Assembly (NCBI RefSeq): GCF_003574735.1
Contig: NZ_QORW01000019.1
Location: 1 to 64,000, forward strand
Direction of reading: 5' to 3'
Length of the DNA stretch: 64,000 nt
DNA from: Dongia deserti
GTDB lineage: Bacteria > Pseudomonadota > Alphaproteobacteria > Dongiales > Dongiaceae
Under the pieces are notes generated by a model. The model worked only from the letters and a program-made list of their open reading frames with translations, had not been told where the DNA came from and searched no databases. Positions 7,118 to 27,483 of this stretch are shown here, in pieces (position 1 is the first letter of the stretch; each line of letters begins with the position of its first letter). A program made the position numbers and the translations under genes.

Positions 7118-7155
7118 CATGAGTAAGGATGATCGCTTGACGATCCTTGCTCATG
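7118..7155. promoter_or_regulatory. large imperfect palindrome over the rhaT promoter
   Basis: The arms CATGAG.AAGGAT..TCG and CGATCCTTGCTCATG flank a 5-nt centre (CTTGA), with one mismatch and a 2-nt bulge. The centre and right arm include the -35 box of the promoter at 7137-7165. A shorter perfect palindrome, GCTGCACTGCAGC, lies upstream at 7095-7107. The position is that expected of a repressor operator. Confidence 0.5.
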
Positions 7156-7165
7156 CATGTTTAAC
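7137..7165 (+). promoter_or_regulatory. candidate sigma70 promoter of the rhaTPQS operon
   Basis: TTGACG (7137-7142), a 17-nt spacer and TTTAAC (7160-7165) make a good match to the consensus. Transcription would begin near 7172, leaving a leader of about 168 nt before the TTG start at 7340. Confidence 0.5.
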
Positions 7166-7339
7166 CTTAATCAAGGCGATAGGAAAGCAATTCCCCGATC
7201 TTTCGGCGCACGCCGGAAGACCGTCACAAGAGATCGCACAAGGGAGGCAAGCGCACATGGTTGGGGCGACATCTGCCGGCCGCCTTGCGTGCATGGTCTG
7301 CAAGCATCGCGGTGCCGCGCCGCGTCGGGAGCGCGCCCG

Positions 7340-8859
<1,520 letters not shown>

Positions 8860-8860
<1 letters not shown>

Positions 8861-9849
8861 TGGCGGTCGCAGCGGCGATCCAGCGGCGCTCGGCCGCCTC
8901 ACGGCTGGTCGAGGCGTACGGCCAGGAACTCGTGGTGCTCGGCGCCATCATCGCCTTGTTCGTGATCGTCGGCACCGTCAACCCGCGGTTCCTCAGCGAG
9001 AACAATCTGATCAACATCTTTTCGGGCAACGCCTATATCGCCGTCGCGGCAATCGGGATGAGTCTCGTTATCATCAGCGGCAATATCGACGTGTCGGTCG
9101 GATCCCTGATTGGGGTGCTCGCGACGATTGCAGGCACGCTGGCAGTGCAGGGCTATCCGATCTGGGTCGCCTGGACGGTTCCGGTGCTGGTGGGAATGGC
9201 GATCAATGCCTGCGTCGGCGCGCTGATCGCCTATTTTCGCATTCCGTCCATCGTGGTCACGCTCGGCATGCTGTCGATCCTGAAGGGCGGGCTCATCAGC
9301 ATTACCGCAGGCACCTGGATCACAGGCATGCCGCCGGAGTTCTTCATCGCGCAGGCGCGGTTCTTCGGCATCCCGGCCCCGGTCTATTTCATGGTGGTGC
9401 TGACCGTGGTTATGGCCCTGTGGATGCGCTATGCCGGACTGGGCCGGGCGATCTATGCGGTTGGCGGCAACGCGGAAGCCGCGCGCGCCTCCGGGCTTTA
9501 TCCCGAGCGGATCTGCGTCGCGGCCTTCGCGATGCACGGCTTCTTCGCAGGCATTGCGGCGCTGCTGTTCGCGACCCAGCTGCAGGTGATCCAGTCGACG
9601 GTTCCGCCCAACCTGGAGCTGACGGTGATCACCGCCTCTGTCATCGGCGGCGTCTCGATCCTGGGCGGCACGGGCACGGTGATCGGCTCCACTTTGGCCG
9701 CGATCCTCTTCGCCTGCATCAGCTCGGCACTCGTCTTTCTCAACGTGTCGGCTTATTGGCTGCGCGCGGTTCTGGGCCTCCTGATCCTGGCGACGGTGCT
9801 GGCCGACATGGCGCGCCGGCGCCGCCATCGCGTGGCGGGGAGGGTGTGA
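8860..9849 (+). CDS. rhaP: rhamnose ABC importer, inner-membrane permease 1
   Basis: The 329-residue BPD_transp_2-type permease is hydrophobic throughout, with about 9-10 membrane segments. It shows the family sequence IISGNIDVSVGSLIGVLATIAG and the cytoplasmic-loop motif YAVGGNAEAARASGLYPERI, where the ATPase docks. It starts inside the rhaT stop codon (TAATG), so synthesis is coupled. With RhaQ it should form the heterodimeric channel of the rhamnose importer. Assignment to rhamnose rests on the locus, since CUT2 permeases do not reveal substrate by themselves. Confidence 0.85.
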
Positions 9850-10790
9850 TGAGCCGGTACCTGGTGCGCCACGAATCGATCCTCGCCATCCTGCTGGTGC
9901 TGGCGCTGATCGTTCTCTCCCTGCAGTCGGACCGATTCTTCACCGTGGACAATCTGCTGAATCAGGGCAGGTTGATGGCGGAGGTCGGGCTGATCGCCCT
10001 GGCGATGACCTTCGTCATTGTCTCGGCCGGCATCGATCTCTCGGTCGGCTCGATCCTGGGGCTGGTCGCCATCCTGCTCGGCGTGTTCTGGCAGAATGTG
10101 GGATTGCCCCTGCCGCTCGCGATGATGCTCGGCGTCTTCGTGGGCGGGCTGGCGGGCCTGTTCAACGGCTTCATCATCACGCGCTTCCGGGTGCCGCCGC
10201 TGATCGCGACCCTCGCAACGCTTGCGCTCTATCGCGGCCTGGCTGAAGGCATCAGTCAGGCGCGCTCGGTTCGCGGCTATCCCGAATGGTTCTTCGTGCT
10301 GGGGCAGGGCGAGGTGCTGGGCGTGCCGACCCAGCTCTGGATCTTCCTGGCCTGCGCGGTGATCGCGGCCATCGTGCTCGGCATCTCGACCTTCGGCCGC
10401 GCCACTTATGCTTCGGGGGCCAATGCCGTCGCTGCGCGCTTCTCGGGGATACCGGTCGATCGGACGATCCTGCTCATCTATACCGCGTCCGGCCTGATCT
10501 CGGGGCTGGCGGCGATCATCTTCGTGTCGCGGGTCTCCACCACGCGCTCGGATATGGGCACAGGGCTGGAGCTCGACGTGATCACGGCCGTGGTGCTGGG
10601 CGGCACCAGCATCTTCGGGGGCCGCGGCACCATCATCGGCACCATGCTGGGCCTGGCCCTGATGCAGGCGCTGAAGAACGGCCTCGCTCTGGCAGGCGTG
10701 AAAGGCGACGGTACGATCGTGGTGATCGGGCTCATCCTGATCGCCACGATCATCATCAGCAATCTGTTGCGGAGAGAATCCGACGGCTAG
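9849..10790 (+). CDS. rhaQ: rhamnose ABC importer, inner-membrane permease 2
   Basis: The 313-residue second CUT2 permease has the family sequence IVSAGIDLSVGSILGLVAILLG and the docking-loop motif YASGANAVAARFSGIPVDRT. The frame extends upstream into rhaP, but the ATG at 9849 overlaps the rhaP stop (GTGATG) and begins a normal permease N-terminus, MSRYLVRHESILAIL. It is about 35% alike to RhaP by eye, as expected for paired permeases. RhaS follows after 62 nt. Confidence 0.85.
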   Translation: MSRYLVRHESILAILLVLALIVLSLQSDRFFTVDNLLNQGRLMAEVGLIALAMTFVIVSAGIDLSVGSILGLVAILLGVFWQNVGLPLPLAMMLGVFVGGLAGLFNGFIITRFRVPPLIATLATLALYRGLAEGISQARSVRGYPEWFFVLGQGEVLGVPTQLWIFLACAVIAAIVLGISTFGRATYASGANAVAARFSGIPVDRTILLIYTASGLISGLAAIIFVSRVSTTRSDMGTGLELDVITAVVLGGTSIFGGRGTIIGTMLGLALMQALKNGLALAGVKGDGTIVVIGLILIATIIISNLLRRESDG

Positions 10791-10852
10791 CCGCGCGCAG
10801 ATCCGGGCCGCGGCCGTCGAACACATATCCGGGTCAAAGGATGGAGGAACGG

Positions 10853-11956
10853 ATGATAAGGACAAGCTTGATTGCGGCAGTGGCGCTCTCGGTCGTGACC
10901 GGCAGTGCGTGGGCGCAGACCTGGACCGGCGGCGACGATTTGCCGACCAATCCGTTGGCATGCGACGGTACCGCGGCCGAAGCGGCGGCGAAGCCCTATG
11001 ACGGTGGCGTGCCGACCAACGCCCCGGACCGCAAGGGCAAGGAGATCACGGTTGTCGATATTCCGAAGCTGATCGGCATCGGCTACTTCAACGCGACCTC
11101 GAAGGGCATCGCCGACGCTGCCAAGGAGTTGGGCAATGTCAAGGTCAAGACCGATGGCCCCACCAAGGCAAACATCGACGAGCAGATCACCTTCATCGAC
11201 AACTACATCACCAGCGGCGTGGACGGCATCCTGTTCGCCGCCAACGACCCGGTAGCGATCGCGCCGGTGCTGAAGAAAGCGCTGTCGAAGGGCATCAACG
11301 TCGTTGGCTACGACGCGAACTCCACGCCCGATGCGCGCCAGTGGTTCGTGAACCAGGCGGAGTTCAACGGCATCGCCAAGTCCTTGGTCGACAACATGGC
11401 CAAGGAGATCGGCGAGGATGGCGCCTTCGCCATCGTCACCTCCACCTTCACGACGCCGAACCAGGCCCGCTGGATCGCGGAGATGGCGGCCTATGCGGAG
11501 AAGTGCCATCCGAACATGAAGTGGCTCGAGACCGTCGAGGCGCAGGAAGACAACGTGCTCTCCTTCAACCAGGCCACCACGCTCATCAACAAGCACGGCG
11601 ACGAGCTAAAAGGCCTGTTCGGCATGACCTCGGTCGCGACACCGGCTTCGGCGGAAGCGGTGACCCAGGCCGGCAAGTGCGGCGAGATCGCGGTGGTCGG
11701 CCTCGCCACGCCGAACGCGATGAAGCCCTATGTCGAGAAGGATTGCGTGAAGTCGGTGGTGCTGTGGAACCCGGTCGATCTCGGCTACGCGGCCATGCAT
11801 GTGCTACGTGCGGTGGCTGACGGTGAGCTGAAGCCGGGCGCTACCTCCGTGAAGGCAGGCAAGCTGGGCGAGCTGCAGGTCATCAACGGCTCCGAGATCC
11901 TGCTGGGCGCGCCGTTCACCTTCACCAAGGAGAATATTGGCGGGTTTGATTTCTAG
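10853..11956 (+). CDS. rhaS: rhamnose ABC importer, periplasmic binding protein
   Basis: The 367-residue protein begins with a Sec signal peptide (MIRTSLIAAVALSVVTGSAWA, cut before QTW). A periplasmic-binding fold of the RhaS/LsrB branch follows, with ITVVDIPKLIGIGYFNATSKG, ITSGVDGILFAANDP and VVGYDANSTPDARQWFVNQA. The chosen ATG has GGAGG 6 nt upstream; earlier in-frame starts fall inside rhaQ. In Rhizobium, rhaS precedes rhaTPQ, whereas here it is last. The relatives include AI-2-binding LsrB, so an autoinducer ligand cannot be excluded from sequence alone, but the rhamnose enzymes around it favour L-rhamnose. Confidence 0.83.
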   Translation: MIRTSLIAAVALSVVTGSAWAQTWTGGDDLPTNPLACDGTAAEAAAKPYDGGVPTNAPDRKGKEITVVDIPKLIGIGYFNATSKGIADAAKELGNVKVKTDGPTKANIDEQITFIDNYITSGVDGILFAANDPVAIAPVLKKALSKGINVVGYDANSTPDARQWFVNQAEFNGIAKSLVDNMAKEIGEDGAFAIVTSTFTTPNQARWIAEMAAYAEKCHPNMKWLETVEAQEDNVLSFNQATTLINKHGDELKGLFGMTSVATPASAEAVTQAGKCGEIAVVGLATPNAMKPYVEKDCVKSVVLWNPVDLGYAAMHVLRAVADGELKPGATSVKAGKLGELQVINGSEILLGAPFTFTKENIGGFDF

Positions 11957-11976
11957 GCGGCACATTCGCCCGTAGC

Positions 11977-12014
11977 GGCGCGCTTGTCACGCGGCAGGCG
12001 CGCCGGTTTCTTTT
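11977..12014 (+). terminator. rho-independent terminator after rhaS
   Basis: GGCGCGC (11977-11983) pairs perfectly with GCGCGCC (11998-12004) over a 14-nt loop. The hairpin is followed by the T-rich run GGTTTCTTTT. It lies 20 nt after the rhaS stop. Confidence 0.6.
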
Positions 12015-12021
12015 GGGGAGT

Positions 12022-12045
12022 CCCTCGCCCCTTGCGGGAGAAGGG
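12022..12045. repeat. short palindromic repeat of the CCCTC...GAAGGG type
   Basis: The 24-nt unit around CCCCTTGCGGGAGAAGGG matches the ends of the element at 19287-19534. It is a single solo copy between convergent genes and may add to termination of the glycine-rich operon. Confidence 0.45.
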
Positions 12046-12051
12046 AAGGAA

Positions 12052-13098
12052 TCAATCCTGGATGACGTAGACTTGGCCCGGTTTGCCGTTGGTGCCGGGC
12101 GTACCGGCTTTGCCGGCACCACCGGAATCGCCCTTCGGTCCGATTTCGAAGCGCGATTGCTGCTGACAGCCTTTCATGCCGCCGGCGCCGCCTGGACCGC
12201 CTTCGCCGGGCGCGCCTGGTTTCCCCGATTTGCCGCCGACGCCGCCGGAGACGGAGGTCACGATCTGACCGCGATCCAACGCGCTTTGCAGCGCCGGCAC
12301 ATAAGCGACGTTACCGCCGGTCCCGCCATTGCCGCCCGCCCCGCCGTTGCCACCGTTGCCGCCCTTGGCACCCTTCTCGCCGTTCGACCCCGTCGCGGTC
12401 GGCGTGCAGATCTGGAAGGAGTGCAGCCAGGACTGCGTCTGGCCTTCGCGGCCGGGCTGGCTTTGCAGGATCCTGGCGTCCTGCATCAGCTTGAGATAGC
12501 CCGATATCGACTGCGCAATGACCGGGTCTTCGACCTTTGCGGCCTGCGTCTCCGGCAGGATGGAACCGAGGCACGATGACACCGCGCAGCTCGATGTTTC
12601 GCATTTGCATTGCGTGTCGGCGCCGGGGCCGCCCGCTACGCCTGGGCCACCAGGCCCGCCGTTGCCGCCGGCGCCGCCATCCATTCCGTCATTGAGGATG
12701 ATGAGGCGACCGGATCCTTCAACGGACGTGCCGCGGATCAGGACGGTGCCGGCGGCGATGCCAGGATAGCCCGGCCCGCCGTTGCCGCCATTTGCTCCCG
12801 GTGCGCCCGGCGCGCCGTCGCGGGCGAGATCGGACAGGCTGCCGCGCGGGAATGCCTGGATGATGGTGTCGGCATTGACCTGGATGCGGCCCGCATGGAT
12901 CTCGAGATTGCGGCCCCACAGGATGTAGGTGCCGCCATTGAACACCAGCACATCATCGCTCGGATCAAGCTCGATGCGAATCCCTTGATCGTTGCCGAGA
13001 TTGAAGACCTGCTCGAATGGCACGGCAGTCTCCGCCAGCGCCGCCTTCGACGCGATGATCGCTGCCGCCACTGCGCCAAGATGAAGGAGCGGCCTCAT
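12052..13098 (-). CDS. exported glycine-rich collagen-like protein, third gene of operon
   Basis: The 348-residue product starts with a signal peptide (cleavage expected near ALA22-E23). A short non-repetitive module follows (about 50-83: VLVFNGG, then NLEIHAGRIQVNADTIIQAF). The rest is dominated by Gly-X-Y and GGX repeats such as GAPGAPGANGGNGGPGYPG and GGNGGAGGNGGTGGN. These are interrupted by a hydrophobic strand pair (AGTVLIRGTSVEGSGRLIIL) and a Cys-rich insert (CKCETSSCAVSSC). Six cysteines suggest disulfides outside the cytoplasm. The start overlaps the stop of the previous gene (ATGA). It is a paralogue of that gene. Function is unknown; a triple-helical collagen-like or polyglycine-II fibre or surface protein is the likeliest reading. 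Confidence 0.75.
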   Translation of the reverse strand: MRPLLHLGAVAAAIIASKAALAETAVPFEQVFNLGNDQGIRIELDPSDDVLVFNGGTYILWGRNLEIHAGRIQVNADTIIQAFPRGSLSDLARDGAPGAPGANGGNGGPGYPGIAAGTVLIRGTSVEGSGRLIILNDGMDGGAGGNGGPGGPGVAGGPGADTQCKCETSSCAVSSCLGSILPETQAAKVEDPVIAQSISGYLKLMQDARILQSQPGREGQTQSWLHSFQICTPTATGSNGEKGAKGGNGGNGGAGGNGGTGGNVAYVPALQSALDRGQIVTSVSGGVGGKSGKPGAPGEGGPGGAGGMKGCQQQSRFEIGPKGDSGGAGKAGTPGTNGKPGQVYVIQD

Positions 13099-14006
13099 GG
13101 CGCCTGCTCCTGAACCGCGACGCCCGCGGTGCCCGGCGCTCCGGCTGATCCGGGTTGGGCACCAGTCGTGCGGCGGCCCGGCGCGCCATCGACGCCGCCA
13201 GTACCGCATCCGATGATTCCCGCGCCGCCGAGACCGCCTTTGCCGGGATTGCCGGCCTCGCCGGGATTGCCGCCGGCACCGCCGGCACCGGCTGTAGTCG
13301 TCACGACGAAATGCTTGCTCATGAACAAAGGCGCCAGCGCCTCGGAGTAGACGACGATGCCGCCGTTGCCGCCGCGCCCGCCCGGCCCGCCTTGCCCGCC
13401 AATGCCGCCCCAACCGCCATCGCCGCCGTCCTGCGGCTCGTCACCGCCGCACACCCGCGCCCGCCCGTTGCGGCCATTCCCGCCATCGCCGCCTTGCCCG
13501 CCATCCTGTCCCTTGCCGCCGCCTTGGCCAGAGACGTCGACGATCAATCGGCCCTTGGCCGCGATCTCGCCGATGCGCAGCACGACCTTGCCGGCCGCGG
13601 CGCCATCGTCGCCAACGACGCCTGAACCGCCGGGCGCGCCATTGCCTCCCCGATCGCCATCATTCATGCCGTCGGCGCCGCGCGCCGCCTGGTTTGGCTC
13701 GCCCGGTTTCGGCGGCTTTGTGTGAAGTGTAAAGGAGCGGATGGTCGTATCGGCATCGATCCGCGCATGGCGCGCGACCACGATGAGATTGCCGTCTTCC
13801 AGCACCAGCTCGCCGCCATTGAAGACCAGGATTTCGGTCTCGGGATTGGTCTGCACGATGATCATGTTGCCGGAGCGGACCTTGGCAAGGTCGTGGAAGA
13901 AGACTTCGCGCAGCGACTCCTCCGCTGCCGCAGCATCGCCAAATCCCGCCGCCGCCAGGATGCAGGCGGCCGTCAGGATCGATCGCGATGTCGCGCGTGC
14001 ATTCAT
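13095..14006 (-). CDS. exported glycine-rich collagen-like protein, second gene of operon
   Basis: The 303-residue protein has a signal peptide ending near residue 28. The module at about 59-92 is ILVFNGGELVLEDGNLIVVA, then RHARIDADTTIRSF. Gly-rich blocks follow (GDRGGNGAPGGSGVVGDDG, GGWGGIGGQGGPGGRGGNGG, GAGGAGGNPGEAGNPGKGG). Between them are hydrophobic strands such as AGKVVLRIGEIAAKGRLIVDV. The layout runs in parallel with the protein from 12052-13098: same module, same strand pair, same spacing of Gly blocks. This points to duplication. Cysteines are few (mature part: RVCGGDE and IIGCGTGG). ATGA overlaps at both ends put it in the middle of a three-gene transcription unit. No characterised homologue is recognised. 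Confidence 0.75.
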   Translation of the reverse strand: MNARATSRSILTAACILAAAGFGDAAAAEESLREVFFHDLAKVRSGNMIIVQTNPETEILVFNGGELVLEDGNLIVVARHARIDADTTIRSFTLHTKPPKPGEPNQAARGADGMNDGDRGGNGAPGGSGVVGDDGAAAGKVVLRIGEIAAKGRLIVDVSGQGGGKGQDGGQGGDGGNGRNGRARVCGGDEPQDGGDGGWGGIGGQGGPGGRGGNGGIVVYSEALAPLFMSKHFVVTTTAGAGGAGGNPGEAGNPGKGGLGGAGIIGCGTGGVDGAPGRRTTGAQPGSAGAPGTAGVAVQEQAP

Positions 14007-16885
14007 TGCAGCTGCGTCCCTGTCTTGACGAACAGGATCTCGATCTCGTCGATCACTGGCGGCTGTTTCCAGCCGCTCGCCTGTGCGACCTCGACATAGA
14101 GGTAGTAGGGGGCATCCAGCGGAAAGGCGTTGTCGAGGATCTTGGCGAAGGCCTGATCGGTCGGCACGGACTCCCGCCAGTCCGGCTTCACCTCGCGTGG
14201 GATGGAGATGGTCTTGGCGAAGCCGGTCACGATGGCGCCTGAATCGTCGAGGGCATCGATCACGCGATGGCAGTTGCCGTCGATCGTGACCGTTCCCCAG
14301 CGCGGATGCTCGATGCGCAGGTCGATGCGGCTTGCCATCTTGGGATCGCCCTCGAAATGCACCTTGGTCACGGCGGCACCCAGCAGGAACTGCGCGCCGC
14401 CGCTCGGGCCCGGCGGTGTGATCGAGATCGGGATCAGGATCGGGTGCGATGCGAAACCGGCCCCGGCTCGGCCGAGCCTGATCTGTGCGGCGATCGAGCG
14501 ATTGACCGATTCGAGAAATCGCGCGCGCAGATAGGACGCCTGCAGATTGTGGCTGATATCGGATTCATAGGCGGCGCGGAAGAACTCGACCGTCGGCGGG
14601 GTGGCGGGGTTCCGATCGACGAACGCGCCCGCTTGTTCCGCAAGCCCGCCGGCGAAGCCCTCGTAATACTGCTTGAGCGCGGTGCGCTCGGCTTGCAGCG
14701 CGGCCTTCATCTCCAATCCATCGTATTGTTCCGGACGGCGTAGATCCAGGCCCGCCGCCGTCAAGACATCGTCCATGGGATAGAGCGCCTGGTCCGGCAT
14801 GCTGATCTGCCGCCCAGTCACGTAGTAGAAGCCCTTGCGCAGCAGGTTGGCGGAGCGCGTGACGTCGGCCAGCAGGCGCGCGCTCATGAGGCTGGAGATC
14901 AGCACCTGACGCTGCACGCCATCTTCCGCCGGCAGCGACTTCAATGTGAGCAGGTCGTCGCGCACGGCGCTCAACCACCTGAGATCGGCGTCGATCGCGC
15001 GCAGCCGGCGCGTGTCCGCCAGGATCATGGCCTGCAGCGTGCCGGCGCTTGCCATGATTGCCTCCGCTTCCTGCAGCAGGGCGCTCGATTTCTTCTGCTG
15101 CTCCTCGTCGACCGGTGTGTAGTCGTTGAGGGGGAGCGTGAATTCCGCGGGACCGTTCGGCAGGCCGGCGCGCAGGGAGTCGGCCTTTTCGTGCACGGTC
15201 GCCATCGATGTCCCAAATGCGGCAAGCTCCGCATCGTTCTTCTGCTTGCCCGTAAGATGGCCAAGCGCGGGCGCGACATGCGGGTCGGCTGCCTTCCACG
15301 CAGCCTCGAAATCGGCAAGCAGGAGCGCATAGGCTCGATAACGGCTTGCGATTTCGCGCAGGTCGGTCGGCGCGCCGGCCGGCTGCTCGGTGTCCTTGCT
15401 GCCGTAGTAGGAAACTGGTTTCGTGACTTCGGGGGTCGAGACCAGCGAATAAGGCGCGGCGGCAGGCCGTCCGATACCGATGACGGTATCGTAGGCGAAG
15501 AGATCGTCGACGATACGGCCGAAGCTCGCTGCTTGCGCCCTCTCGGCCGTGTATTGCCCAAGCAGCACCTCGTAGATTGTAACGGCCTCCGTGATCTTGG
15601 CATGGCCGTCCTGAACCATCTTCAGCAGCTTTTCGCTATTGCTACCGATGCGCTGCGCTGCGGCGGCACGATCCGCGCTCTGCGTGCGCAGGATGCGATC
15701 GATCTGATCCACCTGCTTGGCGGGGTCGACGAGCTTGCCGGCGGCCAACACGGCCAGCCTGGTGTCATCCCACAAGGCTAGAGCGCCCGCCTTCTTCCCC
15801 GTGCCGAATGTGGTGTCGAGCGACTTCTGGAAGGATTTGAGCCGCTCCGACAATCCCGTCATCGGGACTTCGTTGGGACCATGGCCGAAAGGGTCGATGC
15901 CGAGCGCCATCTGCGCGCGGATCATATCCAGCGTGGCGATGGCCTGTTGGCTGGCGCGGCGCGCGAGGCGTGGGCTCAGCTCATCGATCTTGGCGCGCAC
16001 GAATGCGCCGACCACGAGGTCGAAGGGCGCGCGCGCATGTAACCGCGCGAGCTTGGCAACCGCCAGATCCGGCCACACCAGCGTCGCGCCGAACAGGCCG
16101 TCATAGATCGTGCCTGCACTTTCGCCGATCGCAATGTCGTAGCCGGCGGACCACACGCTCTTCGGAAGCCCGGAATCGAATCCCTGATCGGCGGTCTTGT
16201 TGTGGAACCAGCGCAGCGGGTCGTCCTTCAGCTGGGCGAGCGCGGCTTCGCTCGCGTCCGTAGGCGGAACAATGGTGCGCGCATTGACCCGCAGCATGCG
16301 TTTCGGCCCGTCGGCCGCCGGCCATTGTGGCGGCCCATTGAGGATCCAACCTTGGGTCGGGAACATGAAAGGCATATCCGGCGCGCGCGACAGATCGAGC
16401 GTGCCGGCAATGATCTCCACCGACTGATGCCGCTCCGTCGGCGGATCCACGAGCGTGATGGCGGCATCACCCGTGAAGCGCACGGCATCGCCCTGAAGCT
16501 TGATCGTGCCGTTAGCCAAGCGGATCGGCATCGCGACGATGATCTCGCGCGCCTCGATGCTGATCTCCGATACGTCGTCCAGGACCTCGCCTGGCGCGGT
16601 CGCCAAGGCCGCGAAGGACCGCGGCGTCAGCTCCACGATGTCGCCGGCGATGCGATAGGCATACCGGTCGCCATCCTGGCGACGCCACGCCAGAATCTCG
16701 CGATCGTCATTCCAGAAGGATGCGGGATCGATCGGCTCCGACGGTGCCAGGATCGGGGCGAGACACCGGTCGAGCTGCGACTGCGCAAGCGCGTGTGTGG
16801 AGCCAAATCCGATCGAAAACGCCAGTCCGACGCACCACAAGACCCGTATGACCTGGGACGAGGTGACGCCTTGGCGATGCTTCAT
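14003..16885 (-). CDS. large exported protein of unknown function, first gene of operon
   Basis: The 960-residue protein has a signal peptide (residues 1-34, ending THALA before Q). A beta-rich region follows at about 60-160, whose ISIEAREIIVAMPIRLANGT faintly recalls the module shared by the two downstream proteins. The middle (about 230-780) is mostly alpha-helical and charged. The C-terminal region has strand-like sequence (PILIPISITPPGPSGGAQFL, GTVTIDGNCHRVIDAL). No transmembrane segment, enzyme motif or known domain is recognised. It is translationally coupled to the two glycine-rich genes, which suggests it helps export, assemble or anchor them, but that is inference. The long frame and operon setting make the gene itself certain. 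Confidence 0.75.
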   Translation of the reverse strand: MKHRQGVTSSQVIRVLWCVGLAFSIGFGSTHALAQSQLDRCLAPILAPSEPIDPASFWNDDREILAWRRQDGDRYAYRIAGDIVELTPRSFAALATAPGEVLDDVSEISIEAREIIVAMPIRLANGTIKLQGDAVRFTGDAAITLVDPPTERHQSVEIIAGTLDLSRAPDMPFMFPTQGWILNGPPQWPAADGPKRMLRVNARTIVPPTDASEAALAQLKDDPLRWFHNKTADQGFDSGLPKSVWSAGYDIAIGESAGTIYDGLFGATLVWPDLAVAKLARLHARAPFDLVVGAFVRAKIDELSPRLARRASQQAIATLDMIRAQMALGIDPFGHGPNEVPMTGLSERLKSFQKSLDTTFGTGKKAGALALWDDTRLAVLAAGKLVDPAKQVDQIDRILRTQSADRAAAAQRIGSNSEKLLKMVQDGHAKITEAVTIYEVLLGQYTAERAQAASFGRIVDDLFAYDTVIGIGRPAAAPYSLVSTPEVTKPVSYYGSKDTEQPAGAPTDLREIASRYRAYALLLADFEAAWKAADPHVAPALGHLTGKQKNDAELAAFGTSMATVHEKADSLRAGLPNGPAEFTLPLNDYTPVDEEQQKKSSALLQEAEAIMASAGTLQAMILADTRRLRAIDADLRWLSAVRDDLLTLKSLPAEDGVQRQVLISSLMSARLLADVTRSANLLRKGFYYVTGRQISMPDQALYPMDDVLTAAGLDLRRPEQYDGLEMKAALQAERTALKQYYEGFAGGLAEQAGAFVDRNPATPPTVEFFRAAYESDISHNLQASYLRARFLESVNRSIAAQIRLGRAGAGFASHPILIPISITPPGPSGGAQFLLGAAVTKVHFEGDPKMASRIDLRIEHPRWGTVTIDGNCHRVIDALDDSGAIVTGFAKTISIPREVKPDWRESVPTDQAFAKILDNAFPLDAPYYLYVEVAQASGWKQPPVIDEIEILFVKTGTQLQ

Positions 16886-17131
16886 CGCAATCCAAGAGCC
16901 TGAGGCGGCCGGACAGGGCTGCTGGCCGGCAGTCTGATACTGTCATGCATCGTGTTGGGCGCCCCTAGCAGCATCGCCGCGTGATGTGGAAGTCCCCCTC
17001 AGCGGTACTATAGCTGGGAGCCCCCAAAGATCAAAGCAGGCGATGGCGTAGGACCGCTCGAATGGCGTGATGCTCGTCACACGGGAGCCACACAAAAGCT
17101 GTCAAAATATGGTTAGCGACTGAACGTGCGA

Positions 17132-17788
17132 TCAGCGCGGTCGATAGGCATTGAGGATCATTTGCACCGCGCCATCCACGACTTCCTCCCGCGTCGGATC
17201 CTCCGGACGAGACGGCATGTTGAACAATCGCCGCAGGTAAAGCGGGCCCTTGACCAGCGCGACCAGCTGGTCGGCCGCCAAGGTCGGGTTGGGGATCACC
17301 AGCTTGCCGCTGGCTGTGGCCTTGCGCAGGAAGTCCGTCAGCATGGCGCGGAAGGGCAGGGGGCCAGTGCCGTACCAGGCATCCACCAGCTCGGGGAAGC
17401 GCGGCCCCTCCGAGACGATGATGCGATAGACCTTGATCGGCCCTTCGCCGAGCAGGAACTGCTCGACCGCGGTGGCGATGCGGCGCAGAGCCACCGCAAT
17501 GTCGGGCTCATCCTCGACCTCCGGGAACAGGTCCACGGCGAAGGCCCGGCAGGCATGGTGGATGATTTCAGCAAACAGCTTCTCCTTGCTGCCGAAATGC
17601 GAATAGACGGTCGCCTTCGATACACCCGCCGCCTTCGCGACCTGGTCCATGGAGACGGCACCATAGCCCTCCGTCATGAACAGGTCCCGGGCCGCCTCCA
17701 GAACTTTGATGGCTTTAGGCGCCCCGAACTCGTCAGGCGTGTCTAGGTCCAGGGTCCGCCTGGACTTGGGCAGTAGATCAAAGGTCAC
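17132..17788 (-). CDS. TetR/AcrR-family repressor of the adjacent efflux pump
   Basis: The 218-residue protein carries a TetR helix-turn-helix at about residues 27-72, with MDQVAKAAGVSKATVYSHFGSKEKLF typical of the family. A larger-than-minimal C-terminal ligand domain of the AcrR type follows. It starts with GTG at 17788 and diverges from the HlyD/EmrB pair. Two similar 17-nt boxes in the divergent region are its probable operators. Inducing ligands are unknown; repression of the pump genes and itself is the normal arrangement. Confidence 0.85.
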   Translation of the reverse strand: MTFDLLPKSRRTLDLDTPDEFGAPKAIKVLEAARDLFMTEGYGAVSMDQVAKAAGVSKATVYSHFGSKEKLFAEIIHHACRAFAVDLFPEVEDEPDIAVALRRIATAVEQFLLGEGPIKVYRIIVSEGPRFPELVDAWYGTGPLPFRAMLTDFLRKATASGKLVIPNPTLAADQLVALVKGPLYLRRLFNMPSRPEDPTREEVVDGAVQMILNAYRPR

Positions 17789-17847
17789 GTGACCGGCTCT
17801 CCCATACTCGCTTGCGGCAATCTAGCACGTCTCGCGAAGGCCAACAA

Positions 17848-17864
17848 AACTACTCAGTTTAGTT
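17848..17864. promoter_or_regulatory. TetR operator candidate 1
   Basis: AACTACTCAGTTTAGTT has inverted ends (AACTA / TAGTT) and matches the box at 17911-17927 in 14 of 17 positions. It lies just upstream of the -35 box of the efflux promoter. Confidence 0.5.
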
Positions 17865-17868
17865 CTGC

Positions 17869-17897
17869 TTGACAAGGCGGCCACCGAAGGGCATTTT
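17869..17897 (+). promoter_or_regulatory. candidate promoter of the HlyD/EmrB operon
   Basis: A perfect -35 TTGACA (17869-17874) is followed after 17 nt by a weak -10 CATTTT (17892-17897). The promoter lies between the two TetR-type boxes, a geometry suited to repression. Confidence 0.4.
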
Positions 17898-17910
17898 CCG
17901 ACGAGAGTTG

Positions 17911-17927
17911 TACTAGTCGGTTTAGTT
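17911..17927. promoter_or_regulatory. TetR operator candidate 2
   Basis: TACTAGTCGGTTTAGTT is a second copy of the box at 17848-17864, with inverted ACTA / TAGT ends. It lies 63 nt downstream of the first, between the promoter and the HlyD start. Confidence 0.5.
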
Positions 17928-17961
17928 TTCTGGTCGAATCTCCCCAGGAGAGGAAACGAAC

Positions 17962-19077
17962 ATGATCCGGAGGATCGCGCTGGGCCTTGGATTGCTGGCC
18001 GTTTTGGTCGGCTTCGGCTTTGGCGGGCACTATTGGTGGCAGGTCATCCGGTTCCAGCAATCGACCGACGACGCCTATGTGGAGAGCGACATCTCCGCGA
18101 TCAGTCCGCGCATCGACGGCTACATCCAGGAGGTGCGCGTCGCCGACAACCAAGCGGTCCGCAAGGGCGACATGCTCGCCATCATCGACGATCGCGATTT
18201 CCGCGCCCGCCTTGACCAGGCCCGCGCCACCCTGGCGACGGACCTTGCGGCGGTCGCGACCTATGACAGCCAGATCGCATTCCAGCACTCGAAGATCGAC
18301 CAGGCCCAGGCGCAGCTCGACTTCGCCGGCGCGGAACTGGAGCGCGCGAAGTCGACCTATGACCGGCGCAAGAAGCTGGTCGACGGCAAGATCATCAGCG
18401 TCCAGGAGATGGACGACGCCAGCGCTGATTATCGCAAGGCCAAAGCGGATGTGGTGCAGATGCGCGCCGCGCTGGTGGCGGAGCAGGGCCAACTCGCGGT
18501 GATCGAGGCCGAGCGTCGTCAGGCACAGGCCAAGGTGGCGCAGGCGGAGGCCGAGGTCGAGCTTGCCGCGAGCGAGTTGGAGAAGACCGTCATCCGCGCG
18601 CCGATCGACGGCGTGGTCGGCGACCGCACGCTCAGAGCCGGGCAGTTCGCGAAGCAGGGCCAGCAATTGCTGGCCCTGGTTCCGATTGACATGCACGTGG
18701 TTGCCAATTTCAAGGAGACGCAGCTTGGCCGCATCCGGCCGGGCCAGAAGGTCGAGATCCGTGTGGACGCCTTCCCGGGGCAGCCGGTAATCGGGACCGT
18801 CGAGAGTTTCTCGCCGGCGAGCGGCGCCATGTTCAGCCTGCTGCCGCCGGAAAATGCCACCGGCAACTTCACCAAGATCGTGCAGCGTGTGCCGGTGCGC
18901 ATCGGCCTGCCGCGCGGCAACACGCTCACTGGATTGCTGCGGCCGGGTCTGTCCGTCGTGGTGAGCATCGATACGCGCGGCGGCGAGGGTGAAGCGCAGG
19001 TGGCCGCGGGCAACAACCTGCTGTTCGGCGCCGCCCAGGCCAGCTCCGACCAGCACGCGGCCGACGACAGCAAATAG
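17962..19077 (+). CDS. HlyD/EmrA-type membrane fusion protein
   Basis: The 371-residue periplasmic adaptor has one N-terminal membrane anchor (residues about 5-23). A split lipoyl domain follows (STDDAYVESDISAISPRIDGYI and the return strand TVIRAPIDGVVGDRTL). Between the halves lies a long coiled-coil hairpin rich in Ala, Gln and Glu, and a beta-barrel domain follows. DDAYV is the hallmark of the EmrA branch. With the EmrB-like transporter downstream it should form a tripartite efflux pump that uses an outer-membrane channel encoded elsewhere. The ribosome site AGGAGAGGAAA precedes the ATG well. Confidence 0.87.
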   Translation: MIRRIALGLGLLAVLVGFGFGGHYWWQVIRFQQSTDDAYVESDISAISPRIDGYIQEVRVADNQAVRKGDMLAIIDDRDFRARLDQARATLATDLAAVATYDSQIAFQHSKIDQAQAQLDFAGAELERAKSTYDRRKKLVDGKIISVQEMDDASADYRKAKADVVQMRAALVAEQGQLAVIEAERRQAQAKVAQAEAEVELAASELEKTVIRAPIDGVVGDRTLRAGQFAKQGQQLLALVPIDMHVVANFKETQLGRIRPGQKVEIRVDAFPGQPVIGTVESFSPASGAMFSLLPPENATGNFTKIVQRVPVRIGLPRGNTLTGLLRPGLSVVVSIDTRGGEGEAQVAAGNNLLFGAAQASSDQHAADDSK

Positions 19078-19125
19078 CCTGCGCGTAGGTCGCCATGCAG
19101 TGCTCACTTCTCTTTCTGCGGCAAG

Positions 19126-19236
19126 GCTTGGTCTTGCCATCCATTGGTTTGACTGCACCCCCTAGCGCCGTCCGGACACCTTGCGCGAAACGCCGGGCGG
19201 CGACCACTGCAGTCATGGATGGCAAGACCAAGCTTT
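19126..19236. repeat. long bulged inverted repeat between hlyD and emrB genes
   Basis: GCTTGGTCTTGCCATCCAT (19126-19144) is the exact complement of 19215-19233. The pairing resumes with GACTGCA (19151-19157) against TGCAGTC (19208-19214), so a stem of 26 pairs has one 6-nt bulge around a 50-nt loop. It begins about 50 nt after the HlyD-gene stop. It may be a mobile palindromic repeat, a transcription attenuator or an mRNA-stabilising hairpin between the two pump genes. Confidence 0.6.
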
Positions 19237-19286
19237 GGCGAGAGGACGCGACCTTCGCATCTGAGCGAGTGAGCCATAAAGAAGCT

Positions 19287-19534
19287 CCCCTTCTCCCCTT
19301 GCGGGAGAAGGATACGCAGGCTTGGCGAGGTGGAGCCGAGCCTAGCCGGAGTTGGACGAGGGCTAGCGCACCGACAGGTGCGCGCGTTCGCAAGAGTGCT
19401 AGAGATACCGCATCGAACCTCGCGAGTACAGCGCTTGCGCGCTGCGCGCCTCCGGCGCTGCCCCCTCACCCAGCTTCGGCTAAGCTCACTTCGTTCGCTA
19501 AGCCTCCGCAACCCTCTCCCGCAAGGGGAGAGGG
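19287..19534. repeat. MITE-like element with terminal inverted repeats
   Basis: The ends at 19287-19311 and 19512-19534 are near-perfect reverse complements built on CCCTTGCGGGAGA, and each is itself palindromic. The 248-nt span has no gene and no good open frame. A solo end occurs at 12022-12045. It separates the two efflux genes, which normally lie adjacent, so it was probably inserted. Confidence 0.5.
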
Positions 19535-19558
19535 GGTTGTTGAGAGGGCGAAGCTGCA

Positions 19559-21103
19559 ATGAGCCCGGAGGTCACCACTCGCCACTGGGCCGGCTTCATC
19601 GCGATGGTGGTCGGCATGTTCATGGCAATCCTGGACATCCAGATCGTCGCATCGTCGCTGAAAGAGATTCAGGCGGGGCTCGCTGCCAGCGCGGATGAGA
19701 TCAGCTGGGTCCAAACCTCCTACCTGATCGCCGAAGTGGTGATGATCCCGCTGACCGGCTATCTGGCGCGGCTCCTTTCCACGCGCATTCTCTTCACGAT
19801 CTCGGCCGCCGGATTTGCATTGAGCTCGCTGCTCTGCGCACTGGCGGGGGACATCAATTCCATGATCGTCGCGCGCGCGATCCAGGGCTTCATCGGTGGG
19901 GCGATGATTCCGGTGACCTTCGCCGCCAGCTTTCTCATGTTCCCGCGCGAATGGCGCAACAACATCTCCGTGCTCATGGGGCTGGTCGCGACAATGGCGC
20001 CGACCATCGGCCCGTCGCTCGGCGGCTGGATCACCGAGAACAGCTCCTGGCACTGGCTGTTCCTGATCAACTTGCTGCCCGGAATCATCGTCTCGGTGCT
20101 GGTGTGGACCTGCATCGACATCGACAAGCCGAACCCGGCGCTGCTGAAGGGCATCGACATTTCCGGCTTCATTCTGATGGCGCTGTTCCTCGGCTCGCTG
20201 GAATATGTGATGGAGGAAGGGCCGCGCTGGGACTGGCTCGAGGACGAATCCGTGCGCACCGTCGCGATGATCGGCAGCGTGGCCGCTGCCGGATTCTTCT
20301 GGCGCATGTTCCGCTATGACAATCCGATCGTGGATCTGCGCGCTTTCGCCGATCGCAATTTCAGTCTCGGCTGCCTTTACAGCTTCATCATCGGCATCGG
20401 CCTCTATGGCAGCGTCTACATCATGCCGCTGTTCCTGGCGAACATCCGCGGTTACAACGCGCTGCAGATCGGCGAGGTGATGTTCGTGACCGGCGTGTTC
20501 CAGTTCCTCTCGGCGCCGATCGCGGGGCGCCTAGCGAAGGTACTGGACCCGCGCGCCATGCTGATGCTGGGACTTGGGCTGTTCGGCGGCGGGGTCTATC
20601 TGCAGTCTCTGCTGACGGTAGACTGGGGCTTCTGGGAATTCTTCCTGCCGCAGGCGGTCCGCGGCCTGGCACTCATGTTCCTGTTCATGCCGGTCAACAT
20701 CATGGCGCTCGGCACGCTGCCGCCCGAGCGGGTGCAGAATGCGAGCGGGCTCTACAACCTGATGCGCAATCTCGGCGGCGCGATCGGGCTTGCAGCCATC
20801 AACACGGTGATGATCGAGCGGCTGGCGCTGCACTGGATGCGGCTGGTGGAGAATTTGACGCCCGGCAATCCAAACCTGCAGAACTTCCTGTCGAACGCTG
20901 GAGCCGGGCTGTCGCTGCAGCTCGGAGAGGCGGGTGACGCGGCAGCCATCAGGCTGCTGGCCAACATGGTGCGGCAGCAGGCCGACGTGCTGACCTTCGC
21001 CGATGTGCTGCTGCTGATGGCGGCGGTGTTCTTCGCCGGCATGCTGCTGATCCCGCTGCTGCGCAAGCCCAAGCCTGCACCGAGCGCCGGTGGCGGGCAT
21101 TAG
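19559..21103 (+). CDS. EmrB/QacA-type MFS drug exporter (DHA2 family)
   Basis: The 514-residue protein has about 14 hydrophobic segments, as in the DHA2 family. The first helix, motif C in VARAIQGFIGGAMIPVTF and the DHA2-typical start FIAMVVGMFMAILDIQIVASS are present. It should export toxic organic compounds with proton antiport, coupled to the HlyD-type protein encoded upstream. The gap of 481 nt to that gene is unusual for the pair and is filled by two palindromic repeats, so expression of this gene may depend on read-through. Confidence 0.88.
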   Translation: MSPEVTTRHWAGFIAMVVGMFMAILDIQIVASSLKEIQAGLAASADEISWVQTSYLIAEVVMIPLTGYLARLLSTRILFTISAAGFALSSLLCALAGDINSMIVARAIQGFIGGAMIPVTFAASFLMFPREWRNNISVLMGLVATMAPTIGPSLGGWITENSSWHWLFLINLLPGIIVSVLVWTCIDIDKPNPALLKGIDISGFILMALFLGSLEYVMEEGPRWDWLEDESVRTVAMIGSVAAAGFFWRMFRYDNPIVDLRAFADRNFSLGCLYSFIIGIGLYGSVYIMPLFLANIRGYNALQIGEVMFVTGVFQFLSAPIAGRLAKVLDPRAMLMLGLGLFGGGVYLQSLLTVDWGFWEFFLPQAVRGLALMFLFMPVNIMALGTLPPERVQNASGLYNLMRNLGGAIGLAAINTVMIERLALHWMRLVENLTPGNPNLQNFLSNAGAGLSLQLGEAGDAAAIRLLANMVRQQADVLTFADVLLLMAAVFFAGMLLIPLLRKPKPAPSAGGGH

Positions 21104-21181
21104 ATACACAGGCGATTGTCAGTCTGTCACCCAGGCCTTAGCCAGCACCTATGCGCTATCGCTGCAGCGCTGACATGTCGT

Positions 21182-21218
21182 ATGGGTGCCGGCTTTCGCT
21201 CCGCTCGGCCGAGATGAC
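21182..21218. repeat. dispersed palindromic intergenic element, copy 2
   Basis: This stretch, 37 nt long, is the reverse complement of 4770-4806 with 4 mismatches (shared core CGCTCCGCTCGGCCG and ending in GATGAC). An upstream GTCACCCAGG near 21127 may be its other end. It lies between the convergent exporter and aldo/keto reductase genes. Confidence 0.55.
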
Positions 21219-21228
21219 AATTGACGTG

Positions 21229-22209
21229 TCATGAGAAACCAACAACCTTGTGCGGCACGTATGGCTCCTCCAACGCTGCAATCTCTTCTGCGGAAAGCTT
21301 AAGCGAAACCGCCGCGACCGCATCGGTCAAATGATGCGGCTTGCTGGCGCCGATGATGGGCGCGGTCACCACGGGCTTCGACAGCACCCAGGCGAGCGCC
21401 ACTTGCGCCCGCGATGCCCCGCGCGCTTTGGCGACTTCCGCGACACGCTCCACTATCTTGCGGTCGGCCTCTTCGGTCGCGCCATACAGGGTGCGGCCAA
21501 ACTCATCGGTCTCTAAGCGCTTGGTGGTCTCGCTCCAATCGCGGGTCAGGCGGCCGCGCGCCATCGGGCTCCACGGAATGACGCCGATTCCTTCCGCCGC
21601 ACAGAGCGGTAGCATCTCGCGCTCCTCCTCGCGATAGAGCAGGTTGAGATGGTTCTGCATGCTGGCGAAACGGGTCCAGCCACGAGCATCGGCGGCGTAG
21701 AGCGACTTGGCGAACTGCCAGGCGAACATGGAAGAGGCGCCGATATAACGCACCTTGCCGATCTTGATCAGGTCGTCCAGCGCCTCGAGCGTCTCCTCGA
21801 TCGGTGTGTCGTAGTCCCAGCGATGGATTTGGTAGAGATCGACATAGTCGGTGCCGAGGCGCTTCAGGCTGGCGTCGATCTCGTTGAAGATCGCCTTGCG
21901 GGAAAGGCCGCCGCCGTTCGGTCCTGGCCGCATTTTGAAATAGACCTTGGTCGCCAGCACGATCTCCTCGCGCTTGGCAAAGTCGCGCAGCGCGCGGCCG
22001 ACGATCTCCTCGCTGGTACCGTCCGAATAGGTGTTGGCGGTATCGATGAAATTGATGCCGAGTTCCAGCGCCTGCTTGATGAGCGGACGGCTGGCCTCCT
22101 CATCGAGCGTCCAGAGGTGAGAGCCCCGCTCCGGCACGCCATAGGTCATGCAGCCTAGGCAGATGCGCGAAACCTTGAGGCCGGCCTTGCCGAGCCTGAC
22201 GTATTCCAT
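21229..22209 (-). CDS. aldo/keto reductase
   Basis: The 326-residue protein is an NADPH-dependent aldo/keto reductase with the (beta/alpha)8 fold. The catalytic tetrad is visible as Asp and Tyr in FIDTANTYSDG, Lys in LATKVYF and His in YQIHRWD. The frame is open to 22248, but the ATG at 22209 is preceded by GGAGGGG and gives the normal start MEYVRLGKAGLKVSRICLG. It lies 10 nt downstream of a second reductase of the same superfamily but a different subgroup, so they form an operon. Physiological substrate is unknown; sugar or aldehyde reduction is plausible next to sugar transport genes. Confidence 0.82.
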   Translation of the reverse strand: MEYVRLGKAGLKVSRICLGCMTYGVPERGSHLWTLDEEASRPLIKQALELGINFIDTANTYSDGTSEEIVGRALRDFAKREEIVLATKVYFKMRPGPNGGGLSRKAIFNEIDASLKRLGTDYVDLYQIHRWDYDTPIEETLEALDDLIKIGKVRYIGASSMFAWQFAKSLYAADARGWTRFASMQNHLNLLYREEEREMLPLCAAEGIGVIPWSPMARGRLTRDWSETTKRLETDEFGRTLYGATEEADRKIVERVAEVAKARGASRAQVALAWVLSKPVVTAPIIGASKPHHLTDAVAAVSLKLSAEEIAALEEPYVPHKVVGFS

Positions 22210-22219
22210 GCACCCCTCC

Positions 22220-23047
22220 CTACGTGAAGAGCTCCGGATCGGGGCCAATGCGTCCCCGATTATTGTCGAGCGTGGCGATCTTCGCCATGTCGTCCTCGGT
22301 CAGCTCGAAATTGAACACGTCGAAGTTCTCGACAATGCGCGCGGGCGTCACCGATTTCGGGATCGCGACCAGGCCGTTCTGGATGTGCCAGCGGAGCGCG
22401 ACCTGCGCCGGCGTGCGGCCATGCTTCTGGGCGATGCCGGCGATTAGCGGGTCTTTCATGACACGGCCCTGGCCCAGCGGGCTCCAGGATTCGGTGACGA
22501 TCTTGTGCCTGGCGTGGAACTCGCGCTGCACCGTCTGCTGGAAGCGCGGATGAAGCTCGATCTGGTTGATGACGGGCACGATGCCGGTCTCGCCGATGAT
22601 GTGCTCCAGATGCGGGACCTTGAAATTGGAAACGCCGACCGACTTGGCGCGGCCGCTGCTCTTGATCTCCTGCAGGGCGCGCCAGGTCTCGACATAGAGA
22701 TTGGTGCGCGGTGTCGGCCAGTGGATGAGATAGAGGTCGACATACTCGAGCCGCAGCTTCTTCAGGCTCTCGTCGAACGCCTTCAGCGCATTCTGGGTGC
22801 CATGCCGGTCATTCCACAGCTTGGTGGTGATGAAAAGCTGCTCGCGCGGCACGCCGGCGGCGCGGATGCCGGCGGCGACGCCCTCTTCGTTGCCATAGAT
22901 CGCGGCGGTGTCGATGGAGCGATAGCCGGCCTCGATCGCGGCCTTGACCGCTTTCGGCGCCTCGGCATTGTCGACCTGCCAGACGCCGAAGCCGATCTGC
23001 GGGATCTCGACGCCGTCATTCAAGCGAATATGCGTTTGTTGAGCCAT
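22220..23047 (-). CDS. aldo/keto reductase, 2,5-diketo-D-gluconate reductase-like
   Basis: The 275-residue protein matches the short DkgA/DkgB group of aldo/keto reductases. Catalytic residues appear in SIDTAAIYGNE (Asp, Tyr), FITTKLWN (Lys) and LYLIHWP (His), and the coenzyme end in IPKSVTPARI. The start MAQQTHIRLNDGVEIPQIGFG is typical, so the 163-codon upstream extension is rejected. It is the first gene of a two-gene reductase operon and diverges from the CUT1 importer. It probably reduces keto-sugars or reactive aldehydes; the actual substrate cannot be read. Confidence 0.82.
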   Translation of the reverse strand: MAQQTHIRLNDGVEIPQIGFGVWQVDNAEAPKAVKAAIEAGYRSIDTAAIYGNEEGVAAGIRAAGVPREQLFITTKLWNDRHGTQNALKAFDESLKKLRLEYVDLYLIHWPTPRTNLYVETWRALQEIKSSGRAKSVGVSNFKVPHLEHIIGETGIVPVINQIELHPRFQQTVQREFHARHKIVTESWSPLGQGRVMKDPLIAGIAQKHGRTPAQVALRWHIQNGLVAIPKSVTPARIVENFDVFNFELTEDDMAKIATLDNNRGRIGPDPELFT

Positions 23048-23651
23048 TGGTCTTTTTCCGGACTGTGTAAGAGCAGCAAAATGATAGATTGGAATCGCGG
23101 GGGCGTTTGTCATCCCTTTCTCCTTCCCCGTGTGGGGGAAGATCGGGATGGGGGTCCGTAGCGCGAACCCCGGCAACGATATTGGCTCGCCTGAATATAG
23201 GATCAATGACAGATGTTGGTGCGGCGTCATGCCCATCCAGCGACGCCTAACCTCACTTCGTTCGCATTGAGCTGCCGCTTGCCGGCGAATAGCGGTCCGT
23301 CGACCCGGCGTTCCTGACTGCGTCGCCAACGCATCATCTATGACGTGCGCGATATCAACCCGCGTCGTGTACGGCCAGAACTCGACACCGCCGAGAGCCA
23401 TCGAATGGGGTGGGCCGGCGCGTCCGAACTGCGATCGTCGCCCCGGCCTTAGTCTTGCGCCGGTGAACGACGTCGCGCCGATCGAGCTGAGCGAAGAGGG
23501 GCCCAAGGACGATGCCAAACCCTCAGAACACCTCAAGGGAGCCAGCCGGGAGATGGGTTAAGCACTGGTGTTTGGGCGCAAATGCACTGTAGAGTCCGTG
23601 GGTCCGGTACTGCAAAGCGGGCCGGCCCAAAAAACGAGGGGAGGAAAAGCA
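23048..23651. other. 604-nt intergenic region between reductase and importer genes
   Basis: No convincing gene is seen. It must hold the divergent promoters. A repeat-like stretch CCTAACCTCACTTCGTTCGC near 23248 resembles one near 19482. Open frames here (for example 23340-23561) show no signature, no ribosome site and a composition like repeat-derived DNA. A strong GAGGGGAGGAAAA site just before 23652 belongs to the binding protein gene. Confidence 0.5.
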
Positions 23652-25136: not shown

Positions 25137-25145
25137 GCCCGTCCG

Positions 25146-26300
25146 ATGCCGAATGCTGGCGCAGATGTCCAGCCGGGGGACTCCCCGGCTGGCGTCCTTC
25201 CGCATGAGAGGTGGGGAGAGTGGCTCGACCGCCATTCGCGCACGTTCTTCATCGCGCCAGCGGTCGTGCTCATTCTGATCTTTGCGATCTTCCCGACCAT
25301 CTATTCGATTGTTTTCGCCCTGAGCCGCGTCCGGTTCACCGGCGAGGGCTTGAAGTTTCGGCTTGTCTGGTTCCAGAATTTCGCCAAGCAGTTCTTCGGC
25401 AACGACCAGGTGCATTTCCTCGGCAAGGTCGGCACGATGGGTGCGCTTGGCACGCTCTTCTTCGCGGCCGTCACTGCTGCCGTGCTCTGGTGGCTCCGTC
25501 GGTCTTATGGCAAGACGAGCTGGATCGGCATGACCGGCCGAGCCATCTCGGCCACCATGGCCATCTTTGTCGCGTGGATCATCGGCGCCACGCTCTTGTC
25601 GGGCAACCCGATTGGAACACTGCTCACGACGCTCTTCTATGTAGTTGTGGGCTGCGCCCTGCAGTTCGTGATCGGCACTGGCCTGGCGTTCCTGTGCTCG
25701 CAGCCGATATCCGGCAAGAACTTCTTCCGCGTGATTTTCTTCATTCCGTTGATGATCACCCCTTTGGGAGTGGGTTACGCCATGAAAATGGTCGCCGACA
25801 TCACGAAGGGGCCGTTTCAGCCCTTGTTCGGTGCGGCCACCGTGGACGCCTGGGTCTGGTCCGCCGACCCCTGGGCGGCGCGCATCGTGATGATGGTCTG
25901 CGACTCATGGCAATGGATTCCCTTCATCTTCATCGCCATGCTGGCTGCGCTTGAGAACGTGCCCAGGGACCATGTCGAGGCAGCGCAGGTGGACGGCGCG
26001 TCAGGCATCGATATCTTCAAGGAGATCACTTGGCCGCAGATTGTCCCGGTTGCCGTGACGGTGCTTCTGATCCGCATGATCGAAGCCTTCAAGATCGTGG
26101 ATCTCCCGAACATCATGACGGGCGGGGGGCCGGGATCCTCCACCGAGTCGATGACGCTTCACTCCATGTACATCTGGCGCGCCAATGATATCGGCACGTC
26201 AGCTGCGGTGGCTTACCTCCTGCTGCTTTTGACCGTCGTAACCTGCGCCTCGTTCTTCAACTACGTGGTGCTTGGCCAGCTGCGAAGGGCCCGCGGATGA
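25146..26300 (+). CDS. CUT1 sugar ABC importer, permease 1 (MalF/UgpA-like, enlarged)
   Basis: The 384-residue permease has the C-terminal MalF/UgpA core with the EAA loop HVEAAQVDGASGIDIFKEITWPQI, followed by IVDLPNIMTGGGPGSSTESM, a family hallmark. It is some 80 residues longer than UgpA. After the first membrane helix it carries an extra hydrophobic region (about residues 95-170: GALGTLFFAAVTAAVLWWL and MAIFVAWIIGATLL) not usual in this group. It follows the binding protein by 9 nt and overlaps permease 2 by an ATGA. Substrate is unknown. Confidence 0.82.
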   Translation: MPNAGADVQPGDSPAGVLPHERWGEWLDRHSRTFFIAPAVVLILIFAIFPTIYSIVFALSRVRFTGEGLKFRLVWFQNFAKQFFGNDQVHFLGKVGTMGALGTLFFAAVTAAVLWWLRRSYGKTSWIGMTGRAISATMAIFVAWIIGATLLSGNPIGTLLTTLFYVVVGCALQFVIGTGLAFLCSQPISGKNFFRVIFFIPLMITPLGVGYAMKMVADITKGPFQPLFGAATVDAWVWSADPWAARIVMMVCDSWQWIPFIFIAMLAALENVPRDHVEAAQVDGASGIDIFKEITWPQIVPVAVTVLLIRMIEAFKIVDLPNIMTGGGPGSSTESMTLHSMYIWRANDIGTSAAVAYLLLLLTVVTCASFFNYVVLGQLRRARG

Positions 26301-27481: not shown

Positions 27482-27483
27482 GT

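Follow-up and report, generated by a model that had tools for sequence, protein, structure and literature searches.

An operon of three genes encoding apparently Sec-exported proteins, two of them glycine-rich paralogues and the third a large protein of no recognized family, is present on a 64,000-nucleotide stretch of Dongia deserti DNA (contig NZ_QORW01000019.1, positions 1 to 64,000; hereafter the window) that belongs to a 6.1-Mb genome of 51 contigs. The operon is an accessory unit with a patchy presence among related genomes. The interpretation favoured here, to which we give a little less than an even chance, is that it makes three envelope proteins in which two bundles of glycine-rich helices serve as rigid binding surfaces on the large partner.

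The genes lie on the minus strand, comprise 960, 303 and 348 codons (genes 1, 2 and 3, respectively) and are joined by two ATGA overlaps, as called from the open reading frames of the window; the span that an earlier note on this DNA had given for them (12052..16885) is exact, and genes and overlaps are listed in Table 1. Gene 3 also falls inside a longer frame of 453 residues with a TTG start, but the ATG at 13098 is taken as its start because the signal peptide and the start of the orthologue described below agree. The ATGA coupling suggests that translation of the three genes is linked, and the conserved gene order and overlaps would fit co-translation of a complex, whose products might then be made in fixed stoichiometry. 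A promoter scan, which is not relied on here, found three sites where 0.9 were expected in the region, including one (17034-17007) that lies upstream of gene 1; terminator-like sites in the region numbered three against 3.2 expected.

Gene 1 was detected in two of 61 related genomes, that of the window and a second member of the genus (G001); genes 2 and 3 occur in two of the 17 genomes of the family (the order being represented by the same 17), and gene 1 is present in the same two. The G001 assembly, which is 68% complete, carries all three genes in the same order with both ATGA overlaps kept, so that the co-occurrence the earlier note had called for is seen in the sole other genome found to contain any of the genes complete. 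Protein identity between the two genomes is 47% for gene 1, 60% for gene 2 and 72% for gene 3, the third codon position differs most in all three genes, and nonsynonymous divergence (dN) is below synonymous divergence (dS) throughout (NG86 estimates of dN and dS: 0.47 and 0.88 for gene 1, 0.33 and 0.80 for gene 2, 0.21 and 0.90 for gene 3). Because identity is kept at these levels, third codon positions are the most divergent and both overlaps survive in a second genome, the operon is more than a chance arrangement of reading frames. The genes flanking it in G001 differ, by eye, from those in the window.

Beyond this pair, no match was found in G002 and G003, members of the same genus that are 100 and 97% complete. 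The operon-bearing record of G001 is that of a Rhodospirillaceae metagenome-assembled genome (JAEUKU010000195.1); the contig scan that matched this record, at 47%, used just two peptide patterns, and absence from it says little. Profile A1 had a single match among 385 genomes of the class, the window itself, as did profile A7 (genes 2 and 3) among 299 genomes of the phylum, the latter profile having been run on these and the 17 family genomes rather than on the class sample. Profile A3 matched two of 385 class genomes and two of 398 in a further sample, in each case the window itself and one match judged to be due to chance, and a search of the family of G373, made without a positive control, gave none in 198 genomes. 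The whole-genome samples overlap between searches, and first looks scored only part of the candidates (e.g., two per genome). Two candidate frames, L009 (G158, E 5e-4) and L031 (G575, E 1.7e-4), were set aside as sensor histidine kinases by eye; E-values of this kind are expected by chance, since they are per genome and hundreds of genomes were searched. A 59-base match (L002 on G000:C3) lies within genes that look unrelated by eye. Phage records, searched with genes 1 and 3, contained no match to either, the limit for gene 3 being E 1, and three scans of viral contigs found no relative.

Glycine makes up 25% of the gene 2 product and 22% of the gene 3 product. The longest runs with glycine at every third position extend over eight triplets in gene 2 and nine in gene 3, and at most ten in a G001 relative. 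Counting those of at least four triplets, some of which overlap in register, gives eight and seven, respectively, and six and seven for the relatives; all seven run lengths of gene 3 are identical in the two species, and those of gene 2 are largely kept (eight runs versus six, with one run of eight triplets versus ten). Glycine positions are kept at 71/77 sites in gene 3 and 63/75 in gene 2, compared with 178/271 and 114/222 non-glycine positions. The kept run lengths would suggest a compact fold over an elastic or fibrous repeat. An N-terminal motif common to both proteins aligns with a score of 88, against 49 for the top of 1000 shuffles. The gene 3 chain is predicted to pack as a layered bundle of glycine-rich helices, and this protein and, by paralogy, that of gene 2 would combine a small solenoid-like beta-strand core with a compact polyproline-II/polyglycine-II helix bundle. 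The polyglycine-II type of fold mentioned in the earlier note accordingly has the backing of structure prediction for gene 3 and of paralogy for gene 2. The gene 3 model also matches giant-virus proteins, weakly to moderately, among them a DUF7932-domain protein (E 2.2e-4), and a similar glycine-bundle plan may exist in giant viruses.

Searches of Pfam, NCBIfam and PHROGs gave nothing significant for genes 2 and 3; below threshold, gene 2 matched DUF3804 (E 0.19), and gene 3 matched FliMN_C (E 0.081), phrog_33295 (E 0.31) and SclB (E 0.37). Eight PDB sequences matched the glycine-rich profile (E 0.0011 to 0.036) and were rejected as apparent artificial linkers or fusions, judging by molecule names and the short stretches matched. 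For gene 1, no significant match was obtained in Pfam, NCBIfam, PHROGs or among PDB sequences, and the earlier description of a 960-residue protein with no recognizable domain holds for these four collections. With all database matches below threshold, and no credible PDB sequence match for gene 1 or the glycine-rich profile, none of the three proteins could be assigned to a characterized family, as had been supposed.

A low-confidence model of the gene 1 product suggests an N-terminal beta region, a long helical middle and a C-terminal beta region. Residues 41-208 align at 31.8% identity with NK6_c_3 of Bradyrhizobium diazoefficiens plasmid pNK6c (AP014687.1), an alignment that outscores 1000/1000 shuffles; compared with gene 1, NK6_c_3 is truncated, encoding just 205 residues, and sits amid transposase genes. 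The plasmid collection contained no match to genes 2 or 3. The annotation of NK6_c_3 (L007 1638-2255) as an ABC solute-binding protein looks wrong.

All three proteins begin with positive charge, continue into a hydrophobic core (Kyte-Doolittle mean over 12 residues, 2.2-2.4) and have cut sites resembling A-x-A, in agreement with the Sec signal that had been proposed for each product, and no transmembrane-like stretch follows residue 45 in any of the proteins (19-residue maximum 0.85-1.32); both kinds of call were made by a hydropathy rule of thumb rather than SignalP. A periplasmic and a surface location are as likely as each other. No type II secretin (GspD) exceeded the family cut-off in the genome, a weak test given that the cut-off was reached in just 2/6 matching control genomes. 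Because of this low control rate and the presence of two weaker matches (121 and 95.8 bits versus 351), the genome may still have a secretion route.

Under the favoured interpretation, the accessory operon would co-produce three Sec-exported envelope proteins, of which those of genes 2 and 3 would pair together and sit on the gene 1 product. The latter, beta-rich at its N-terminus and probably with an extended helical body, would act as a scaffold, disulfides would help to hold the glycine-helix bundles, and the bundles would offer rigid faces for binding to a ligand or a surface, either periplasmic or extracellular. Several points weigh against this interpretation. The gene 1 model is poor, with a mean predicted local distance difference test score (pLDDT) of 40, for which reason its scaffold role and helical body are tentative. 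The alignment behind the gene 3 model has just four rows, and its five models range in mean pLDDT from 52.5 to 74.1. Although the springtail antifreeze protein PDB 7JJV is the top structural match of gene 3, Foldseek gave it only E 0.77 with probability 0.04, the strong value coming from a second aligner run on nine chains, and the four viral-library structural matches at E < 0.001 include a phage protein that bears the name collagen triple helix repeat. No anchor, exporter or ligand was found, no outer-membrane family was recognized in gene 1, the operon was found in two genomes only, and the mutual binding of the three proteins is something we infer.

Glycine-rich polyproline-II bundles have been described in the antifreeze proteins of springtails, at the tips of phages and in the PE_PGRS proteins of mycobacteria, according to the portions of these reports available (PMC10235112, PMC6851490, PMC13243192). 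The predicted fold is of a known kind; a search of the literature, with subscription journals and preprints outside its coverage, returned no description of such an operon, of the gene 1 family or of the three-part layout. In comparison with 7JJV, a collembolan polyproline-II helical bundle and the nearest structural match of gene 3, the glycine-rich segments here alternate with beta-strands, and the protein comes from a bacterium, forms a paralogous pair with the gene 2 product and shares its operon with the gene for a 960-residue protein. In PE_PGRS proteins, bundles were proposed from models and simulation (PMC13243192, in part); the likeness is by description only, and differs in that no PE domain was matched in Pfam and that the runs here are short and interrupted by beta-strands. 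A bolder version of the favoured interpretation is unlikely: this would be the first three-part envelope machine of a bacterium in which a dedicated large scaffold, from a family not yet described, carries a pair of distinct polyproline-II bundle proteins, whose rigid lattice of hydrogen-bonded glycines would serve for recognition or adhesion, and the accessory unit would have spread. A conserved bacterial bundle pair made together with a large partner of unrecognized family would offer a tractable case for studying the ligands of such rigid bundles and their assembly in the envelope of a Gram-negative cell. An annotation label may also need correction, if, as we expect, automated pipelines often describe genes of this type as collagen-like.

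The alternative readings overlap with the favoured one and with each other on location, and their likelihoods need not sum to one. The strongest of them, somewhat unlikely in our estimation, is a periplasmic ligand-binding or assembly-factor complex in which the glycine bundles form rigid protein-protein platforms with no surface role. It would fit products that carry Sec-type signals and no recognized anchor, a genome without GspD above the cut-off, weak as that test is, and the even numbers of conserved cysteines in the mature proteins (2, 2 and 6 for genes 1, 2 and 3); against it, the neighbourhood is not conserved and so gives no hint of a pathway.

The model of the earlier note, in which collagen-like or polyglycine chains are secreted to build a fibre on the cell surface or an adhesive tip and gene 1 serves for export or anchoring, is rather more doubtful. 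Export signals, glycine-rich repeats and a large partner all agree with it, and a precedent for a polyglycine bundle as an adhesive tip is the tail-fibre adhesin gp38 of phage S16 (PDB 6F45), the nearest worked example of the gene 2/3 plan, in which the turns of a beta-helix are extended into a polyglycine sandwich proposed to contact the receptor (PMC6851490, in the part available). Unlike gp38, gene 3 has no sequence match in phage records, none of the three proteins matches a named PHROG (the only such relation being gene 3 to phrog_33295, of unknown function, at the E-value given above), and the genes are chromosomal and encode Sec-type signals. With the bacterial collagen-like proteins Scl and Bucl the operon shares Gly-X-Y tripeptides in exported proteins, but it lacks any long Gly-X-Y tract free of interruptions, Pfam gives no collagen model up to E 1, and the SclB match of gene 3 reaches 9.6 bits against a cut-off of 325. 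A collagen-like fibre is accordingly not supported: no glycine run exceeds ten triplets, and run lengths are identical between the species in gene 3 and mostly so in gene 2. The lack of a transmembrane-like stretch after the signal, of a recognized outer-membrane family in gene 1 and, as a weak test, of GspD above its cut-off also speak against a fibre or tip, as do the HlyD-type and MFS genes that adjoin the operon here and are not seen, by eye, beside that of G001.

That genes 2 and 3 encode mere spacers, of low complexity or disordered and lacking a defined fold, is improbable: the composition is of low complexity and the gene 3 insert is modelled below pLDDT 50 at residues 170-227, but the model contains confident glycine-rich segments, run lengths are kept and dN is below dS. 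Ice-binding by bundles acting like the collembolan antifreeze proteins, which in the available part of their description present one flat face of small residues from alternate helices of 3-4 GXX repeats and another that also bears charged residues (PMC10235112), is highly improbable in spite of the top structural match, given a large unrelated partner and 13-14 charged residues among the 45-65 non-glycine residues of the runs, a composition that is not decisive in view of the charged residues on that other antifreeze face.

Table 1. Features of the three-gene operon and its surroundings (window coordinates)
Feature	Coordinates	Strand	Remarks
Gene 1	14003..16885	-	960-residue exported protein, orphan family; coordinates run 16885..14003
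Sec-type signal peptide, gene 1	16784..16885	-	about residues 1-34; rule of thumb
Gene 1 beta-strand-rich region, residues 65-215	16241..16693	-	block pLDDT 36-77; related to truncated pNK6c gene
ATGA overlap, genes 1/2	14003..14006	-	4 bases; kept in G001
Gene 2	13095..14006	-	303-residue exported glycine-rich protein, paralogue of gene 3
Gene 2 N-terminal motif common with gene 3	13719..13922	-	alignment
Gene 2 glycine-rich region, residues 107-295	13122..13688	-	presumed polyproline-II/polyglycine-II helices, fold after gene 3 model
ATGA overlap, genes 2/3	13095..13098	-	4 bases; kept in G001
Gene 3	12052..13098	-	348-residue exported glycine-rich protein
Gene 3 N-terminal beta motif common with gene 2	12835..13029	-	alignment and model
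Gene 3 first glycine-rich segments, residues 93-163	12610..12822	-	block pLDDT 71-95
Gene 3 cysteine/helix insert, residues 164-236	12391..12609	-	contains five of the protein's six Cys; mostly modelled at low confidence; gene 2 lacks most of it
Gene 3 second glycine-rich part, residues 237-341	12076..12390	-	block pLDDT 77-97
9.2-kb segment (islet)	12006..21228	.	operon with TetR, HlyD-type and MFS genes (Pfam); missing at matching site of sister genome G002

The accessory character of the operon is also apparent from its surroundings. DNA of G002 that matches window positions 7125-12005 (86%) and 21229-23117 (86%) lies just five bases apart, so the whole of the intervening islet is lacking there. 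Gain in the window genome and deletion in G002 are equally possible. Guanine-plus-cytosine content is 64.8% in the islet, 64.6% in the left flank and 62.3% in the right flank; as for signs of a mobile element, the islet genes that could be named include no integrase, the window carries no tRNA and composition shows no clear step, and none of nine operon neighbours scanned is a phage gene. Within the islet, a TetR (AefR-like) gene is divergent from genes for an HlyD-type adaptor and an MFS transporter (17132-21103), an efflux-like set. At its left edge ends a plus-strand terminator-like hairpin of 13 pairs (11976-12005), directly 3′ of sugar-ABC genes, such sites being no commoner than chance. 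A second stretch of 5.5 kb (23118-28641) is likewise missing from G002, in which the match resumes at window position 28642, and contains a gene for an extracellular solute-binding protein (Pfam SBP_bac_8; 23568-25136).

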